DNA of 64,000 nucleotides, taken from contig NZ_AUHH01000007.1 of the NCBI RefSeq assembly GCF_000423085.1, positions 1-64,000 on the forward strand, read 5' to 3'. The translations under genes and the position numbers were made by a program. The stretch comes from Granulicoccus phenolivorans DSM 17626 = NBRC 107789 = JCM 15570. Its GTDB lineage: Bacteria; Actinomycetota; Actinomycetes; Propionibacteriales; Propionibacteriaceae. The notes beneath the pieces were generated by a model that saw only the letters and a program-made list of their open reading frames with translations, was not told the origin of the DNA and made no database searches. Positions 123-50,736 of this stretch are shown in pieces (position 1 is the first letter of the stretch; every line of letters starts with the position of its first letter).

Positions 123-202
123 GTGGGCGGATCCTGCCACTACTGTGCGTTCGAACCCCGAAATCGGCCGAAACGACCCGACTGGCGGCAGGATCGGACC
201 AC
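123..202. repeat. 80-bp palindromic repeat, copy 1
   Basis: Ends are GTGGGCGGATCCTGCCAC on the left and the complement of GTGGTCCGATCCTGCC on the right, 80 bp apart. Both arms are of the type containing CCTGCCAC; the arm type containing TTGACTCCAG is absent, unlike copies 3-9. Nearly identical to copy 2 at 644-723. Confidence 0.8.
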
Positions 203-9934: not shown

Positions 9935-10570
9935 ATGTCCGCTGCCCAGACCCCCGCCCCGCACCGCCCGCGCCTCAGCGTGTCCGAGCGGCGGGCGCTG
10001 CTGATCGAGGGCGCCTGGACCCTGATGAAGCGCGAAGGCGTCGCCGCCGCGACCACCCGCGCCATCTGCGCCGAGGCCGGCATGCCGCACGGGGCCTTCC
10101 ATTACTGCTTCCGCTCCAAGCAGGAGTTGTACGCCGAACTGCTGACCGGCCAGATCACCGGCGGCCTGGCGGAGGTGTGGGCGCAGATCGACGCCTCCGC
10201 GGACGTCCGGGAGACCATCCTCGCGATCTTCCTGGCGTACTGGGACCAGGTCGAGGCCGACCCCCAGGCGCAGGTGGTGATCGCCGAGCTCACCGTGCTG
10301 GCCCAGCGCGACGCGGAACTGCGCGAGCTCTCGATGGCCGACGGGCGATCCACTCATACCCTCGCCCGGACGATGCTGCGCCAGTTCATCGAACTCACCG
10401 GCGTCCGGTCGAGCCTGCCCGACGACCTGCTGGCGGAAATGTTGCTCGGCGCGCTGTCGGGAGTGACCAACCGCTGGCTGGTCAGTCGCGACAGCGCCAC
10501 GGCCCGAGCGGCCCTGGCGGAATACGCGAAGCTCTTCGCCGGCTACACCCAGGAGCAGCCCGAACCCTGA
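9935..10570 (+). CDS. TetR family regulator, likely repressor of the MMPL-yhgE operon
   Basis: 211 residues. The N-terminal helix-turn-helix region is clear (LLIEGAWTLMKREGVAAATTRAICAEAG, then HGAFHYCFRSKQELYAELL, residues about 20-75), followed by an all-helical ligand-binding domain that I cannot match to a known ligand. It is divergent from the MMPL operon with a 22-bp palindrome between them, so autoregulation and control of the transporter are likely. The start is set by a leaderless -10 box 7 nt upstream. Confidence 0.85.
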   Translation: MSAAQTPAPHRPRLSVSERRALLIEGAWTLMKREGVAAATTRAICAEAGMPHGAFHYCFRSKQELYAELLTGQITGGLAEVWAQIDASADVRETILAIFLAYWDQVEADPQAQVVIAELTVLAQRDAELRELSMADGRSTHTLARTMLRQFIELTGVRSSLPDDLLAEMLLGALSGVTNRWLVSRDSATARAALAEYAKLFAGYTQEQPEP

Positions 10571-10675: not shown

Positions 10676-11323
10676 GTGACCGAGGGCATCAAGGTCAGCG
10701 CGCGCCGCGCGTTGACCCGCGAACGCCTGCTCGACGCGGCCCTGGAGGTCTTCGCCGAGAACGGCATCGCCGGCGCTTCGGTCGAGAGCATCTGCTCACG
10801 GGCGAATTTCACCCGAGGAGCCTTCTACTCCAACTTCAGCACCATCCATCAGGTCGTGGTCGAGGTGATGCGGCGCGAGCGGGAGACCACCGTCGCCGCC
10901 TCCCGGGAAGCGGTGGCCCGGCTGGACCTGAGCCCGCTGCAGAGCGCCGCCCAGGATCAGTTGGTCAGCGCCGCGGTGGACCTGTTCCTCAGCCTGCGGC
11001 AGAACCGGACGGCCGAGCTGCTGTTCGGCGAGGAGATCCGCCTGTACGCCGCTCGCACCCCCGAGCTCGCCGAGGAATATCGGTCGATGGAGGATGCCAC
11101 CGAGGAGGCACTCGTCGAGATCATGTCCCGGGCCCTGGCGGCGCTCGACATGGAACTGAATGTGCCCGTCGAGACGGCCATGCGGATGCTGGCCGCGATG
11201 CACCGCCAGGCCACCCTCAGCGACCTGATCCGGCACGACGGCGAGATGACCGAGGCCCGCGAGGACCTGAAGCTGATTCTCAAGATTCTGCTCTCCGGCG
11301 ACCGGCAGCCCGAGGTCGCCTGA
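10676..11323 (+). CDS. TetR family transcriptional regulator
   Basis: 215 residues, GTG start with GGAAGGGG as ribosome site and TAGCCT (10642-10647) as plausible -10 box. The DNA-binding part is ALTRERLLDAALEVFAENGIA...FTRGAFYSNFSTIHQVVVEVM; the rest is a helical ligand domain. Its target is not obvious: it stands alone, downstream of the previous TetR gene on the same strand and convergent with the GMC oxidoreductase gene. Control of the P450-GMC operon is possible but would have to act at a distance. Confidence 0.85.
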   Translation: MTEGIKVSARRALTRERLLDAALEVFAENGIAGASVESICSRANFTRGAFYSNFSTIHQVVVEVMRRERETTVAASREAVARLDLSPLQSAAQDQLVSAAVDLFLSLRQNRTAELLFGEEIRLYAARTPELAEEYRSMEDATEEALVEIMSRALAALDMELNVPVETAMRMLAAMHRQATLSDLIRHDGEMTEAREDLKLILKILLSGDRQPEVA

Positions 11324-11449
11324 CTCGGGATGTCCCGGTGCCCGGCACCGATGTCGGCCGACTTCTGTGTGGGCGTTCATTTCTTCGGCAAGTTCTGAAA
11401 GTCCGTCAACGGTCCGCGCTGCCGGCTGACACCCGGGCTCGACCGGTGA

Positions 11450-11529
11450 GTGGGCCGATCCTGCCACCAGATGCCCGAATCGGGTCGAATTCGGCCCGAT
11501 CGCACCCTCTGGAGTCACTATCGGCCCAC
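11450..11529. repeat. 80-bp palindromic repeat, copy 3
   Basis: Perfect ends GTGGGCCGAT and ATCGGCCCAC. Left arm has CCTGCCACCAGA, right arm is TCTGGAGTCACT. The core is almost the same as in copy 4, and homology continues about 19 bp to the left. At 11579-11601 it is followed by a copy of the last bases of the AlkD gene (CAGCGCAGGG...CGCCGCG). The rest of 11324-11607 holds no gene. Confidence 0.9.
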
Positions 11530-11607
11530 TCCGGCCGGCGCACCCCACCCGACCGGCCGGGCAGGGCGCACCGGCAGGGTCAGCGCAGGGCTCGCCGCGT
11601 GTCCGGA

Positions 11608-13233
11608 TCAGGCCCGGGTGACCAGCCGGACGGCATTGGCGCCGATCAGGATGGCGGGCGCGTTGGTGTTTCCGGAGGTGATCGTGGGCATCACCGACGC
11701 ATCGGCGATCCGCAGGCCGTCGACCCCGCGTACCCGCAGGACCGGATCGACCACCACGTCCGGATCCTCCGGGGAGCCCATCCGGGTGGTCCCGACCCAG
11801 TGCGCACAGTTCTGGATCTTCTCCCGCAGGAAGGTCTGCCACTGCTCGTCGCTGCGTACCTCGACCCCTGGGAAGTCCTCCGAGGTCACCAGTGCGCGCA
11901 TCTGCGGGCTGGCGGTGAAGATCTCCCGGACCTGCCGCGCCGCCGCGATCATGTCGGCGACATCCTGCTCCTGCGACAGATACTCCAGCTTGATTTCGGG
12001 CAGTTCGTCGGGCGATGTCGAATGGACCGTCACCGACCCGCGCGCCCGCGGATGCAGCAGCGCCACCAGGGCCGAGATCACCGAGTTGTCGGCCAGTTGC
12101 ACGTTCTGCTTGGAGGCGTTGCCGTCCGGCCGGACCGCCAGGGACAGCGGGGCGAACATCACCTGGTAGTCTGCCCGCCCGGTCGATGCCCCATCGAGGC
12201 GACCGAACAGCACGGCGTTGGCCAGCGGCGCCGTCGCGGGGCCACTGTGATGGGCCAGGAACTGGTAGCCGCCGCGCACCACACCCGCCGGAGTCATCTC
12301 CTGGTTCAGCGTCGGGATGTTGACCTGGTACTGCAGCCGGACGGTGGTGTGTTCCTGCAGATTTCGGCCCACGCCGGGCACGTCGGCGACGACCGGTACG
12401 CCCAGGGCAGCCACGCTGTCGGCCGAGCCGACGCCCGAGCGCAGCAGCAGCGCCGGTGTGGCGATGGCGCCCGCACAGACGATGACTTCCTTGGTCGCAA
12501 TGGCCCGATGGACCCGGCCCCGGCGCAGGTACTCGACCCCGGAGGCCCGGTTCCCGTCGAACAGGATTCGGCGCGCGACGGCATGGGTGGCCACCCGGAG
12601 GTTGCGGTATTTCCGGGCGGCCGGGCCCAGGAACGCCCGGGCACTGGTGTGCCGCAAGCCGTGCTGCTGGGACAGCTGGGACCAGGCGACCCCGACCTGC
12701 TCGTCGGCGTTGTAGTCGTCGCGGTACGGGAAGCCGACCTCGGTCGCCCCCTGGATGAAACTGCGGACGACCGGGTGATCCAGTCGCACCCGGGACACCT
12801 GCTGGGGCCCCCATTCGCCGCGGGTCGGACCGTGGTGGTCGTTGCTGGTCTCGAGTTCGCGCATCAGCGGAAGGAGCGACTCGTAGTCCCAGCCGGTGGC
12901 CCCCAGCTCGGCCCATTCGTCGAAATCGTCGCGGTGTCCCCGGACCCAGAGCATCGCGTTGACCGCGCTGCCGCCGCCGAGCACCTTCCCCGAGGCCCAC
13001 ATGTCCCGCTTGCCGTTGCGGGTCGCATCCGGTTCCACCTGATAGGGCCAGTAGTTCTTGCGCGGCATCTTCATCATGCCCGCCGGCAACGCGATCTGGG
13101 GCTGCAGGTCGGTACCGCCGGCCTCCAGGCCGAGGACCCGATAGCCCCGGGCCGCCAGCCCGGCGGCGACCACGGCCCCAGCGGATCCGAGACCGACGAC
13201 CACGTAGTCATGGACCGATTCGTCATTCCCCAC
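11608..13233 (-). CDS. GMC family FAD oxidoreductase (choline dehydrogenase-like)
   Basis: 541 residues if started at the GTG at 13233, which has GGAGG eight bases upstream; a GTG at 13242 is also possible but too close to that site. N-terminal FAD-binding motif VVVGLGSAGAVVA, then LEAGG; GMC signature GSAVNAMLWVRGH (about residue 95); C-terminal catalytic region HWVGTTRMG followed by SGNTNAPAILIG. Such enzymes oxidise alcohols with FAD. The gene overlaps the 3' end of the P450 gene by 11 bases, so the two are co-translated; the substrate may be an alcohol produced by the P450. Confidence 0.88.
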   Translation of the reverse strand: MGNDESVHDYVVVGLGSAGAVVAAGLAARGYRVLGLEAGGTDLQPQIALPAGMMKMPRKNYWPYQVEPDATRNGKRDMWASGKVLGGGSAVNAMLWVRGHRDDFDEWAELGATGWDYESLLPLMRELETSNDHHGPTRGEWGPQQVSRVRLDHPVVRSFIQGATEVGFPYRDDYNADEQVGVAWSQLSQQHGLRHTSARAFLGPAARKYRNLRVATHAVARRILFDGNRASGVEYLRRGRVHRAIATKEVIVCAGAIATPALLLRSGVGSADSVAALGVPVVADVPGVGRNLQEHTTVRLQYQVNIPTLNQEMTPAGVVRGGYQFLAHHSGPATAPLANAVLFGRLDGASTGRADYQVMFAPLSLAVRPDGNASKQNVQLADNSVISALVALLHPRARGSVTVHSTSPDELPEIKLEYLSQEQDVADMIAAARQVREIFTASPQMRALVTSEDFPGVEVRSDEQWQTFLREKIQNCAHWVGTTRMGSPEDPDVVVDPVLRVRGVDGLRIADASVMPTITSGNTNAPAILIGANAVRLVTRA

Positions 13234-14413
13234 GGGAGACACCTCCGAGTTGTTTGGCGGTGAAGATCACCGGGACCGAGATCAGCCCCCGATTCATGGC
13301 GATGTTGGCGCCGACCCGGACCTCACCGTCGATGCGATAGTCCGGGATCCGGCGCAGGACGACCTCGGCGGCGACCCGCATCTCGAGCTTCGCCAAGTGC
13401 TCCCCGACGCAGCGATGGATCCCGTGCCCAAAGGCGAGGTGGGACTGGGCAGCACTGCGATCGATGTCGAACGTGCCCGGATCGGGGAACCGGTCCGGAT
13501 CCAGATTGGCCGCCCCGAAGAAGAGGCCAACCTTCTCCCCGACGCCGATCTCGACCCCGGCCAGGGTGACCGGCTCGGTGGCGGTCCGACCCATCATCGC
13601 AATCGGCGATTCCAGCCGCAGGGCCTCATCGACCGCCCTGGGCAGCAACCCCGGATCGGCGATCACCCGCTTCTTGGTCTCGGGGTGTTCGCCGAGCGAC
13701 CAGAGCAGGCTGCTGATGCCGTTGACCGTGGTTTCGTGCCCGGCGATCACCAGGCTGATCCCCATCCGGACCCGTTCGTCGTGGGTCAGGTCGGCCCGCG
13801 AGATCAGGCCGAGCAGCCCCTGGGATTCGGGGTCGCTCTCCGCGTCGGTGACCAGTTCCTCGATGAACGCGGCGTACCGCTGCTTGGCCTGCTTTGCCGC
13901 GTCATCGGTACGCCCCGCCGCGCGGTTCAGCAGGTCGGAGACCTCGAGCATCTCCTGGGCGCGCTGCGGCGCTCCGAGAATCCCCGCAATGATCAGTGCG
14001 GGCAACTGTTCGGCGATTTCCCGAAGATCGCCGCGGCCCTCCTCGATGAAGCCGTCGATGATCCCATCGACGATCTCGACGATCCGGGCCTCCTGGGCCG
14101 AAACCCGGTCCGGACGCAGTTCGGGCTGCAGCAACCGGCGATAGCGACGGTGCTCCGGCTCGTCGACCTCGGTCGGAATCGCCTGGCCCACCCCGAGCCC
14201 GGGGATCGTGGCGCCCTGTCCGGAACACAGTTCGTCATGCTGCCCGGCGGCCGCGCGGACCTGGTCGTAACCGAGCACCGCGACATACTCGCCCAGGTCG
14301 TCGGCCCGGAAGACCGGCCCGTGCTCGGCGCGCGCGGCTGCGTACGCCCGGTCGGCGTGGGGTTCGCTGTTGATCCGGGCGAGGTCGAAGGGGCACTTCT
14401 GCGGTTCGCTCAT
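13223..14413 (-). CDS. Cytochrome P450 (bacterial class I type)
   Basis: 396 residues, soluble. I-helix AGHETT at 224-229, K-helix EALR at 263-266 followed by ESP, and heme loop FGHGIHRCVG with Cys335 as the iron ligand. No ferredoxin or reductase gene lies nearby, so electrons must come from elsewhere. Its ATG overlaps the stop of the preceding 57-codon gene (ATGA), and its own 3' end overlaps the GMC gene, so the three form a tightly coupled operon. Substrate unknown; the size and motifs resemble actinobacterial CYP enzymes of secondary or steroid metabolism. Confidence 0.9.
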   Translation of the reverse strand: MSEPQKCPFDLARINSEPHADRAYAAARAEHGPVFRADDLGEYVAVLGYDQVRAAAGQHDELCSGQGATIPGLGVGQAIPTEVDEPEHRRYRRLLQPELRPDRVSAQEARIVEIVDGIIDGFIEEGRGDLREIAEQLPALIIAGILGAPQRAQEMLEVSDLLNRAAGRTDDAAKQAKQRYAAFIEELVTDAESDPESQGLLGLISRADLTHDERVRMGISLVIAGHETTVNGISSLLWSLGEHPETKKRVIADPGLLPRAVDEALRLESPIAMMGRTATEPVTLAGVEIGVGEKVGLFFGAANLDPDRFPDPGTFDIDRSAAQSHLAFGHGIHRCVGEHLAKLEMRVAAEVVLRRIPDYRIDGEVRVGANIAMNRGLISVPVIFTAKQLGGVSRGE

Positions 14414-14583
14414 GCGGTCGTCACCCCGGCCACCCGGTCGCCGAGTTCGGTGGTGAGCGCGGCCGGGGTGAGCACCGGCACTCTCCCGCCGTCCCGGTGG
14501 CGCTGCGGATTGGCCTTCATCTGCTTGTTCGCCTCGAGGTCGACATCGACCGAGATTCCGACAGCCACGCTGCTATTCGACAT
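14410..14583 (-). CDS. 57-residue protein of unknown function leading the P450 operon
   Basis: Short reading frame starting MSNSSVAVGISVDVDLEA and ending ELGDRVAGVTTA. Evidence that it is real: about 86% of codons end in G or C; a TACGCT -10 box lies 6 nt before the ATG (leaderless layout used elsewhere here); its stop overlaps the P450 start by four bases. It has no cysteines, so it is not a ferredoxin, and no aromatic residues, which argues against the known P450-modified RiPP precursors. No family is recognised. Its role could be a P450 partner, a leader peptide or an unmodified small protein. Confidence 0.6.
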   Translation of the reverse strand: MSNSSVAVGISVDVDLEANKQMKANPQRHRDGGRVPVLTPAALTTELGDRVAGVTTA

Positions 14584-14589
14584 GGACGG

Positions 14590-14595
14590 AGCGTA
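14590..14595 (-). promoter_or_regulatory. -10 box TACGCT of the P450 operon
   Basis: TACGCT, six bases, ATG at 14583. Upstream the DNA is unusually AT-rich (14598-14632) and includes CATA-N8-TATG at 14615-14630, a possible operator. Confidence 0.5.
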
Positions 14596-14705
14596 GCAGA
14601 TAACGAAATATCGTCATATAGAACAGTATGTCGAACTTCTGTTGCTTCATCACCAGCAGGCTCTTGGACCGTCGCTGCGTTGAACCACCCGGGCTGGACC
14701 GGTGG

Positions 14706-14785
14706 GTGGGCCGATCCTGCCACCAGACGCCCGGATCGGGTCGAATTCGGCCCGATCGCACCCTCTGGAGTCACTATCGGCCCAC
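14706..14785. repeat. 80-bp palindromic repeat, copy 4
   Basis: Perfect ends GTGGGCCGAT and ATCGGCCCAC. Differs from copy 3 at only a few positions and is in the same orientation. It ends 10 bp before the AlkD stop codon, whose last ~25 bp are also copied next to copy 3. Confidence 0.9.
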
Positions 14786-14795
14786 TCCGGCCGGG

Positions 14796-15473
14796 TCAGC
14801 GCAGGGCCCGCCGCGCTTCCCGCACCGACAACGGCGCCAGCTCCGGATGTCCGGCCAGAAAACCCTCGACCCAGCCGGGGTCGGTGCGGGCGTACTGCCG
14901 CAGCGCCCAGCCGATGGCCTTGCGGGCGAAGAAGTCCGGGTCGCCGATCGACCCCTCGATGCAGTAGGCCAGCAGTTCGGGATCGGTCCCGGGACCGCGG
15001 CCGAGCTGGCACAGGATCGCACCGCGGCGCAGCCACAGATCCGGGCGCCGCGACCAGTCCCGCATCGTGTCGGCCGCTTCCGGGTGCGTTTCCAGGACCA
15101 GTTCCAGCAGGTGGGCCACATCGTCGACCAGGTCCCACCAGGCCGCGCTGACGATCAGGTGCTCATAGCAGGCCAGCGCCGCGAGCCGGGAGGCGCAGCG
15201 CCGATGGCGTGGATACCGGGCCACCGCCAGCGCGGCGTAGCGCTCTTCCCGATGCGTCGCCGGGTCCCACAGCTCCCGGATCGTCGCCTCCCAGACGGTC
15301 TCATCGGGGATCGGATACTCCGCGAGCAGCGCCCGGGTGAGCCGGCGCACCTCGGGCACCGCGACCCCGTGGAAGGGCAGGTCCGACTTCATGTAGCGCT
15401 GTTGCGCCGCCGCCCGCCGCGGGTCGCCGGCCGCGGCGAGTGCGGTTCGCACGGCGGCGGCGAACTCGCTCAC
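14796..15473 (-). CDS. alkD: DNA alkylation repair protein (AlkD-like HEAT-repeat glycosylase)
   Basis: 225 residues, the usual AlkD length, all helical HEAT repeats. Characteristic stretches are YMKSDLPFHGVAVPEVRRL near residue 27 and FFARKAIGWALRQYARTDP near the C-terminus, with WDLVDDV in between supplying the catalytic Asp region. AlkD enzymes excise bulky or cationic alkylated bases such as 3- and 7-alkylpurines. The GTG start lies just after the stop of the glycosyltransferase gene, so it is co-transcribed as the downstream gene, an unrelated function that may simply be hitch-hiking. Confidence 0.88.
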   Translation of the reverse strand: MSEFAAAVRTALAAAGDPRRAAAQQRYMKSDLPFHGVAVPEVRRLTRALLAEYPIPDETVWEATIRELWDPATHREERYAALAVARYPRHRRCASRLAALACYEHLIVSAAWWDLVDDVAHLLELVLETHPEAADTMRDWSRRPDLWLRRGAILCQLGRGPGTDPELLAYCIEGSIGDPDFFARKAIGWALRQYARTDPGWVEGFLAGHPELAPLSVREARRALR

Positions 15474-31427: not shown

Positions 31428-33287
31428 TCACCCCAGCGCTTCGGCGGCCCGGACCAGCGCCAGGTGGCTGAACGCCTGCGGAAAGTTGCCCAACAGCCGC
31501 CCGGATTCGGCGTCGTACTCCTCGGCCAGCAGCCCGACATCGTTGCGGGTGGCCAGCAGTTTCTCCATCAGCGCGACCGCGTCGGTACGCCGGCCGGACC
31601 GGGCGTACTGCTCGACCAACCAGAACGAGCACATCACGAACGCCCCCTCCCCGCCGCTGAGCCCGTCGGCCCCGGTCGGGCGGTAGCGCCGGACGAACCC
31701 GTGCGGATCCAGCAGGTCCTGCTCGATCCGGGTCACCGTGGCCCGCATCAGGTCGGAGTCGGCGGCGACGAAGCCGGTCTGCGGAATCTGCAGCAGCGCC
31801 GCATCCACCTCATCGGTCGCATAGTGCTGCACGAACGCTCCGGCGCGTACGCCGTGGGTCAGGATCTCGGTGCGCAGTTGCTCGCGCAGCCCACGCCAGC
31901 GCTCGACCGGCCCGGTCAGCCCGTGCTCCTCGACTGCGCGGATGCCCCGGTCGAAGGCGGCCCACATCATCACCCGGCCGTGGGTGAACTTCTGCGGGTC
32001 CCCGCGTACCTCCCAGATGCCCCGATCGGGCACGTCGAGGCGTCGCTCGGTGAGGTCCAGCAGGTTGAGCTGCAACGCCCAGGCGAACTCGCCCTCCCCG
32101 TTCTCCAGGCCCGCCCGGCGGAGCTGATCCAGCGCGATCATGATCTCCCCGACCACATCGGCCTGGTACTGGGTGTACGCCTGATTGCCGACCCGGACCG
32201 GCCGGGACGCGCGATAGCCGGCCAGATGATCCAGCGTCTGCTCGGGCAACTGCCGCTCCCCGTCCAGGCCGTACATGATCTGCAGGTCCTCCGGATCCCC
32301 GGCGATCGCGCGCAGCAGCCAATCGCGCCAGTGCACGGCGACCCGATGGTGCCCGTGCCCGACCAGCGCCTGGATCGTGAACGCCGAATCCCGCAGCCAG
32401 GTGTAGCGGTAGTCCCAATTCCGCTCACCGCCGATCAGCTCCGGCAGGGACGTGGTGGGTGCCGCGACGATCCCGCCGGTCCGCCGCGAGGTGAGCGCCC
32501 GCAGCACGGTCAGCGAGTCGGCGGCCGCCTCGGCATAGCCGCAGCTCAGCGGGACCGAATCGCGCCAGGCCCGCCAGTGCTCGACCGCCCGCTCCAGTTC
32601 GGGGTCCACCTCGAGCGCCTCGGCCACCCCCGCGTACGCCGGCAGCCAGGCCAGCGTCCAGGTCAGGCTCTCCCCGGCGGTGAGGCGATGCCGGCCCCGA
32701 TGGACGTACCCGTCGGGGGCCAGCGCCGGGCCGTGCAGGGTGAGCGAATCCGGTCCGGCCAGGGCGTGCAGCACCGGGTTCCCACCGGCATCCCGGCGCC
32801 GCCGCACCCACGGCCGGACGCGGCCGTAGTCGAAGCGCATCACCAGTTCGGAGTCCACCTCGATGCTCCCGGCGGTGCAGGTGATCCGCCGGATCAGCGT
32901 CTCGCCGATGCCGTCGAAGCCGGCGACCCGGGCACACAGGAAATCGGTGCTCACCGCGGTCCCGGTGGGACCCGCCCAGTCGGTGTCCAGGACGAAACTG
33001 CCGGTCCGGTAGCCGCGTCCGGTCACCCGACCCGCGACCGGACGCAGCACCCAGCGACCGTTGTCGGCCCCGCCCAGCAGCCGGGCGAACACCGCCCGGG
33101 CGTCGAACCGGGGCGGACACCACCAGTCGATCCCGCCCTCGGCCACCAGCGCCGCGGATTGCCGGTCGGCCAGCAGTGCGTACTTCTCGATCCCCGGCTG
33201 CATCGTCTTGATCCCCGGCTGCATCGTCTCGATCCCCGGCTGCATCGTCTCGATCCCCGGCTGCATCGTCGGGTCAGGCTCTCCCAT
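31428..33287 (-). CDS. GH15 family glycosidase (glucoamylase/trehalase type)
   Basis: 619 residues from the ATG at 33287; the conserved family start is IEKYALLADRQSAALV, about 30 residues in. Hallmarks: GGIDWWCPPRFD, ERNWDYRYTWLRDSAFTI (substrate-binding and general acid region) and a C-terminal GEGAFVMCSFWLVEQYAR. Cytoplasmic; probably cleaves trehalose or alpha-glucans. Four in-frame 21-bp repeats at the N-terminus each contain an ATG (33266, 33245, 33224, 33203), so the natural start may be any of five. CAGCAT lies 6 nt before 33287 and favours that one. Downstream of the GH3 gene on the same strand. Confidence 0.85.
   Translation of the reverse strand: MGEPDPTMQPGIETMQPGIETMQPGIKTMQPGIEKYALLADRQSAALVAEGGIDWWCPPRFDARAVFARLLGGADNGRWVLRPVAGRVTGRGYRTGSFVLDTDWAGPTGTAVSTDFLCARVAGFDGIGETLIRRITCTAGSIEVDSELVMRFDYGRVRPWVRRRRDAGGNPVLHALAGPDSLTLHGPALAPDGYVHRGRHRLTAGESLTWTLAWLPAYAGVAEALEVDPELERAVEHWRAWRDSVPLSCGYAEAAADSLTVLRALTSRRTGGIVAAPTTSLPELIGGERNWDYRYTWLRDSAFTIQALVGHGHHRVAVHWRDWLLRAIAGDPEDLQIMYGLDGERQLPEQTLDHLAGYRASRPVRVGNQAYTQYQADVVGEIMIALDQLRRAGLENGEGEFAWALQLNLLDLTERRLDVPDRGIWEVRGDPQKFTHGRVMMWAAFDRGIRAVEEHGLTGPVERWRGLREQLRTEILTHGVRAGAFVQHYATDEVDAALLQIPQTGFVAADSDLMRATVTRIEQDLLDPHGFVRRYRPTGADGLSGGEGAFVMCSFWLVEQYARSGRRTDAVALMEKLLATRNDVGLLAEEYDAESGRLLGNFPQAFSHLALVRAAEALG
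33187..33270. repeat. Four 21-bp tandem repeats encoding TMQPGIE
   Basis: Units of the type CTGCATCGTCTCGATCCCCG at 21-bp spacing; each codes (M)QPGI(E/K)T on the minus strand. The one nearest the gene body changes the last residues to KYALL. Confidence 0.85.
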
Positions 33288-33354
33288 GACGTCATGCTGC
33301 CACGCGGCGGCCCCGACCGGACCGCAGTTCGTCACCTCACTCGCGCAGGCCGGC

Positions 33355-50571: not shown

Positions 50572-50616
50572 TCGGTGGCCGTCTTGTCCGTGCGGGTACA
50601 GCTCCCTCGTCCGCGA
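50572..50616 (-). ncRNA. Guanidine-III (ykkC-III) riboswitch
   Basis: On the minus strand, the conserved blocks GCGGACGAGG, GTACCCGC and GGACAAGACGG follow in the right order and spacing of the guanidine-III class; GCGG can pair with CCGC for P1, and the second stem is present with mismatches. The GAAGGGAG ribosome site of the SMR gene begins right behind the aptamer, fitting translational control: guanidine binding would release the site. Recognised by eye, not by a covariance search. Confidence 0.8.
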
Positions 50617-50736
50617 ACCCTGGGCGGGTCGCTGCTCAGCCTAACAAACGGCGCCGCCGGAAGCCCGTTCGCCGACCGGGGTGCCCGCCGCGGGGGCGGG
50701 TGCGCGGCGGCGTACCGGCACCGCCAGACTGATCGC

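Follow-up and report, generated by a model that had tools for sequence, protein, structure and literature searches.

In Granulicoccus phenolivorans a three-gene operon for putative oxidative enzymes stands between two nearly identical, directly oriented copies of an 80-bp palindromic repeat, between two core genes that adjoin each other directly in two species of a related genus. At a probability of roughly 0.4, our preferred account is that the operon was joined in at a break-prone palindrome, with insertion of the genes and duplication of the palindrome constituting one event. The bracket pattern itself is true, and an ordinary trait of the repeat family to which the two copies belong accounts for part of it. 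It is this family that is the unusual part: its members are of fixed length, their arms covary, and sister copies are mostly adjacent.

The bracketed operon and its junction

The two copies, termed copy 3 (11450–11529, plus strand; hairpin z −5.9) and copy 4 (14706–14785, plus strand), are spaced 3256 bp apart in the window, the 64,000-nucleotide stretch of DNA analyzed here, and each sits just behind a stop codon, that of a GMC oxidoreductase gene for copy 3 and that of an alkD-like gene for copy 4. They match at 78 of 80 positions on the same strand (97.5%), and the likeness runs on from −20 to +9, amounting to 96.3% identity over 109 bp (11430–11538 against 14686–14794). Within this longer match, the left flank of copy 3 (11430–11449, plus strand) is duplicated beside copy 4 (14686–14705, plus strand) at 18 of 20 bases; allowing up to three mismatches, the consensus of the two flanks is found at only these sites in the window, where 0.19 were expected. 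To the right, the flank of copy 3 (11530–11576, plus strand) has 9 bp in common with that of copy 4, followed by about 40 bp that are missing after copy 4; here the family's outer ACC motif lies at +13 to +15 (11542–11544). Next comes a 23-bp stretch resembling the end of alkD (11577–11599, plus strand), separated from the GMC stop codon by 8 bp. It is the single recurrence of the alkD end (14793–14815), from which it differs by one base (22/23), and a search tolerating three mismatches returns only these two sites in the window, against a chance expectation of 0.02 in 64 kb. Beside copy 4, the right flank and the alkD end shared with 11577–11599 together occupy 14786–14815 (plus strand).

An earlier note on this DNA, made by inspection, had described two nearly identical copies in the same orientation, a common left flank of about 19 bp, and three genes lying exactly between them (14583–11608, minus strand). 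All of this is borne out. Its further claim, that some 25 bp of the alkD end follow each copy, holds for 23 bp, although the spacing from element to tail differs by the 40-bp indel.

The space between the copies is filled by a three-gene operon with overlapping starts, all on the minus strand. An AT-rich leader (14584–14685; 49% GC), presumably the promoter, precedes a 57-codon open reading frame (14410–14583) that belongs to no recognized family, has no Pfam match and encodes zero cysteines. It overlaps the start of a cytochrome P450 gene through ATGA (13223–14413; 396 aa; PF00067), which in turn overlaps the start of the GMC oxidoreductase gene by 20 bp (11608–13242; 544 aa; PF00732/PF05199). 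The P450 is of bacterial type, with a 52% paralogue elsewhere in the genome. The GMC protein is choline-dehydrogenase-like, yet falls under the NCBIfam equivalog cut-offs for choline dehydrogenase and for the mycofactocin-associated enzyme MftG (for the latter, 280 bits where 387 are needed). Its nearest solved structure is 8b7s, and its neighbors among solved structures are a chloramphenicol-inactivating oxidoreductase and also alcohol oxidases. Judged from these families, the natural guess is that the module oxidizes a small hydrophobic substrate in two steps, hydroxylating it and then oxidizing the resulting alcohol. Two other ideas were set aside. Despite a tempting likeness on inspection, the small open reading frame is not recognizable as a decayed P450 ferredoxin, aligning to the organism's own ferredoxin no better than shuffled sequence does (p 0.26), and GMC and P450 do not form a known transferred unit: among the loci fetched, GMC homologues had no close P450 beside them and P450 homologues had no GMC, the only P450s present being less than 30% identical and confined to three loci. 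Plasmid-borne GMC proteins reach at most 41% identity to that of the module, and PADLOC gave no match to a defense function.

The surrounding gene order is conserved in related genera, and runs from DUF805 through a penicillin-binding protein, a glycosyltransferase and alkD to a convergent TetR gene, MmpL and a repeat-rich membrane protein. In the window, the alkD-like DNA glycosylase gene (14796–15473, minus strand; 225 aa; PF08713) is syntenic with that of relatives, and TetR2 (10676–11323, plus strand; PF00440) is the best match to the single TetR that relatives carry between alkD and MmpL. In the two related species the genes stand tail to tail with nothing between them: the gap, read from the printed sequence, is 16 bp at locus L097, and at L099 the stop codons overlap. 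No copy of the element is found at either. Two further loci, L098 and L100, hold unrelated genes at the junction, about 5 kb and 4.6 kb respectively, around which no bracketing repeats were found. P450 and GMC genes are absent from the junction in every relative where it was located, these four included. Since the module is absent there and the junction is empty in two species, the operon is an insertion in the source lineage, at a site that takes up unrelated genes repeatedly in Propionibacteriaceae. The earlier note had proposed an insertion or duplication using the repeat, and had suggested looking for an allele in which alkD is followed directly by the TetR gene with one repeat copy. Insertion stands, as does the direct alkD-to-TetR arrangement, in L097 and L099. 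The single repeat copy does not, the element being missing there, and use of the repeat is less secure, since about ten other local sister pairs exist, mostly with no gene between them. Scans of GTDB genome contigs, which include no congener, found no single-copy, operon-free allele.

Two side observations concern this junction. In another genus (L105:9190–9390), a different short palindrome (CATCCCGGCGAACGCCGGGATC) is present there twice. In the window, a second TetR gene (9935–10570) lies between TetR2 and MmpL; it looks added, because relatives have one TetR there, which is closer to TetR2.

An intergenic palindrome family and its sister copies

Copies 3 and 4 are two of about 50 in the genome. 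A covariance model based on 33 copies returned 107 matches, with most places counted on both strands, placing this dispersed intergenic family at about 50–60 places in the 4.12-Mb genome. Length is tightly held, at 80 bp in 47 of 50 copies and 79 bp in the other three. Every copy lies between genes, as called by a simple codon-usage script (26 tandem, 12 convergent, 7 divergent, 5 unassigned), with a mild genome-wide lean toward the 3′ ends of genes. The 21-bp arms form terminal inverted repeats in which 88% of cells are paired, with covariation at two outer pairs (positions 4 and 5), and stable hairpins are predicted on both strands. Median identity between copies is 66%, and falls to 45% in the interior, whose length is nonetheless conserved. 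An outer motif (GGT/ACC) recurs 12 nt beyond the element: on the left as G and T/G at −14/−13, and on the right as A, C and C at +13 to +15, in 24, 26 and 25 of 38 non-redundant copies. Because this motif is enriched at a fixed distance outside the 80 bp, the constrained unit measures about 110 bp.

How does such a family compare with known systems? REP/BIME palindromes tagged by GTAG/CGTC (PMC3733652) are likewise intergenic, numerous, partly paired and mildly biased to 3′ ends. However, they span 20–40 bp rather than 80 bp (or 110 bp for the unit), carry a tag that the element's consensus lacks, and are RAYT-linked and alternating, whereas here sister copies are mostly direct and the Y1 transposase (PF01797) is absent from the genome, although present in 5 of 14 control genomes. 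A RAYT-mobilized REP is thereby ruled out. ERIC and MITE-type units also resemble the element, in being imperfect palindromes of fixed length that are non-coding, strictly intergenic and devoid of a transposase of their own; the element differs in having no Rfam match, no target-site duplication and an interior down to 45% identity at constant 80 bp. In 50 copies, no flank match of at least 4 bp was seen at any offset tested. Arm sequences gave 72 matches, nearly all within 80-bp elements and no pair at transposon distance in this draft assembly of 74 contigs; lacking both lone arms so placed and a target duplication, the family is not a MITE of a resident insertion sequence. A known RNA family was similarly dismissed, none being found at the elements: Rfam matches in the window were limited to a tRNA and a guanidine-III riboswitch (50574–50635, minus strand), the latter barely over threshold.

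The exact arm pattern has no match in 84,980 GTDB species genomes, a set that may omit the source genome or those very close to it. Weak matches to the model, 80 bp long with other arm sequences, do occur in other genera of the bacterial family, so the class may extend beyond this species; on sequence grounds, palindromes of fixed length may form a wider class in that family.

Among side observations, loci L143–L151 from other genera (for example, L143:1501–1580) carry 80-bp palindromes whose 21-bp arms differ from those of the element yet are complementary to each other, and a scan of 648 kb from relatives picked independently of the model also turned up several palindromes of 76–81 bp. Contigs C5 and C22 carry near-identical elements with long shared flanks at their starts (window 123–202 and 644–723; C22:336–415), so the assembly seems to break in the repeat and the first kilobase of the window is the end of a contig. 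A 21-bp tandem repeat of four MQPGIET-type units (33185–33289) marks the start of a glycoside-hydrolase-like gene in the window.

Sister copies tend to be neighbors. Eleven of 15 local pairs (within 6 kb) are at least 87.5% identical, against the family median of 66%, and 10,000 permutations yielded a maximum of three such pairs. Together with the expectations of 0.19 and 0.02, this permutation test rejects chance similarity of repeats and tail. Nine of the 11 sister pairs are direct, and both inverted ones involve a single copy in C21. Some share the bare 80 bp (C21 11522/11931 and C7 68545/70399); in others the likeness covers the 80 bp and 4–40 bp of flank, then stops abruptly at unrelated DNA. 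Most lie 270–520 bp apart within one gene-free intergenic region, enclosing roughly 160–370 bp. In two other pairs the copies stand on either side of a single gene: C7 68545/70399 (88.7% identical) around an acyl-CoA ligase gene (L062:1725–3344), and C5 143038/144381 (92.5%) around a FAS1-dehydratase-like gene (L157:2110–2598). The module pair is the largest direct case, its spacing exceeding that of every other direct sister pair found. As some ten other pairs exist, most with no gene between them, local duplication happens without a module. By this comparison, the element has a general habit of duplicating locally, of which the bracket is one instance, and the frame, while real, probably reflects the repeat's own multiplication more than a dedicated gene-moving device.

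Routes to the frame

Sequence comparison shows that the operon was inserted, as judged against relatives, that the repeat was duplicated, and that it belongs to a family with local direct sister pairs; we infer the break-and-repair step and the union of insertion with duplication in a single event. In the account we prefer, the operon would have entered the 3′-to-3′ alkD/TetR junction in the source lineage, with a palindrome serving as the break-prone site at which DNA was joined in. Repair of staggered or hairpin-processed ends would then leave the palindrome and flank on each side, such that a direct duplication of one family member, with 20–30 bp of its flanks, frames the operon. About ten other loci show a similar footprint, there with short spacers. 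In favor of this account, the repeats abut the inserted genes; direct orientation prevails among sister pairs, as a target-type duplication would require; and hairpins predicted to be strong accompany the near-identity of local pairs. The genome encodes Ku, so end joining is possible. Against it, no congener or strain with an empty single-copy allele was found, most sister pairs enclose only the short intergenic spacers, which need not have been inserted, and exact 80-bp pairs could equally come from transposition. In Escherichia coli, interrupted palindromes down to 85 bp drive rearrangement by hairpin processing involving SbcCD and RecA (PMC3315005). The product there is an inverted chromosome duplication, whereas the two copies in the window have the same orientation and enclose other DNA, so hairpin processing is a lead and not a match.

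Nearly as likely is a local copying of the element across an operon already resident. Copy 3 would have stood behind GMC first, its original right flank being what now looks like an alkD tail, and the element would have been copied to the end of alkD, overwriting the last five codons. The polarity of the two copies bears on this. The family's outer ACC is present at copy 3 and missing at copy 4, and at both bases that differ between the copies, copy 3 agrees with L048, which is among the most similar distant copies. In the AlkD homologues fetched, the C-terminus reads REA, then a residue that is hydrophobic or small, K/R and mostly H/W (REALKHL-type); the protein here closes with REA-RRALR, and the point just after REA is exactly where the shared 23 bp set in. 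With ACC and the 40 bp at copy 3, and the AlkD end changed at the repeat boundary, the alkD-side copy may be derived, as sequence suggests; the earlier note's shared tail stands, but its labels of real tail (14796) and copy (about 11579) are doubtful. These derived states and the AlkD change would fit a copy pasted later better than a symmetric duplication. The AlkD end may reflect either plain divergence or last codons overwritten by the duplicated chunk. Local sister copies are also the rule in this genome, including the C7 and C5 pairs over single genes. Yet the changed AlkD end is of normal length, with an in-frame stop and codon-like composition, which overwriting would have to produce as an extra coincidence; the 3256-bp spacing is greater than in all other direct pairs found; and the lineage-specific arrival of the operon is left unexplained.

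A bolder version of our preferred account, which we regard as unlikely, makes the 80-bp palindromes DNA-capture sites: a hairpin or cruciform cut at its base would leave a full copy on each end, and any captured DNA would come to lie between direct copies. Were this true, all local sister pairs, with or without genes, would be capture footprints, and the palindromes a transposase-free route to gene cassettes.

Also unlikely is the arrival of repeat, operon and repeat as one composite unit, or of a circle carrying operon and repeat by homologous recombination, in the manner of MITE composites. Direct, near-identical ends exactly at the module's borders would suit this, and there is precedent in the TIME-COMPs (PMC13367494, PMC4133298), in which passenger genes lie between two Tn3-derived MITEs, copies of a small palindromic element. 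Compared with these, the module lacks a short target duplication and has local flank and gene tail duplicated as well. Moreover, the tail matches the local alkD, the family shows no target-site duplication at its 80-bp borders, and the genome offers neither lone arms at transposon distance nor a RAYT-type transposase.

It is improbable that the bracket is incidental, with the copies being functional 3′-end hairpins (terminators or mRNA stabilizers) behind alkD and GMC whose likeness is maintained through selection or gene conversion. Predicted stability on both strands, placement just behind stop codons and the lean of the family to 3′ ends agree with such a role; shared non-element flanks and a gene tail, however, need duplication, copies elsewhere in the family share only 66% identity, and seven lie between divergent genes. 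Finally, the idea that the operon entered an older, closely spaced pair and split it is disfavored, because only 8 and 102 bp of non-coding DNA are left, compared with spacers of about 160–370 bp elsewhere.

Whichever route produced them, two direct repeats of 109 bp at 96% identity are a plausible substrate for deletion. In Mycobacterium smegmatis, direct repeats delete intervening DNA about 1000-fold over background (PMC3519483); given this and the anatomy of the copies, excision of the module by recombination between them is plausible, as the earlier note had anticipated.

If insertion and palindrome duplication were indeed one event, small hairpin repeats would represent a general, transposase-free entry for accessory operons, and operons so captured would stay ready for precise deletion. 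Even on the ordinary reading, this is an unusually clean family, with a fixed 80 bp, covarying arms, about 50 copies and sisters that are mostly neighbors, which makes the mechanism by which intergenic palindromes multiply directly testable.
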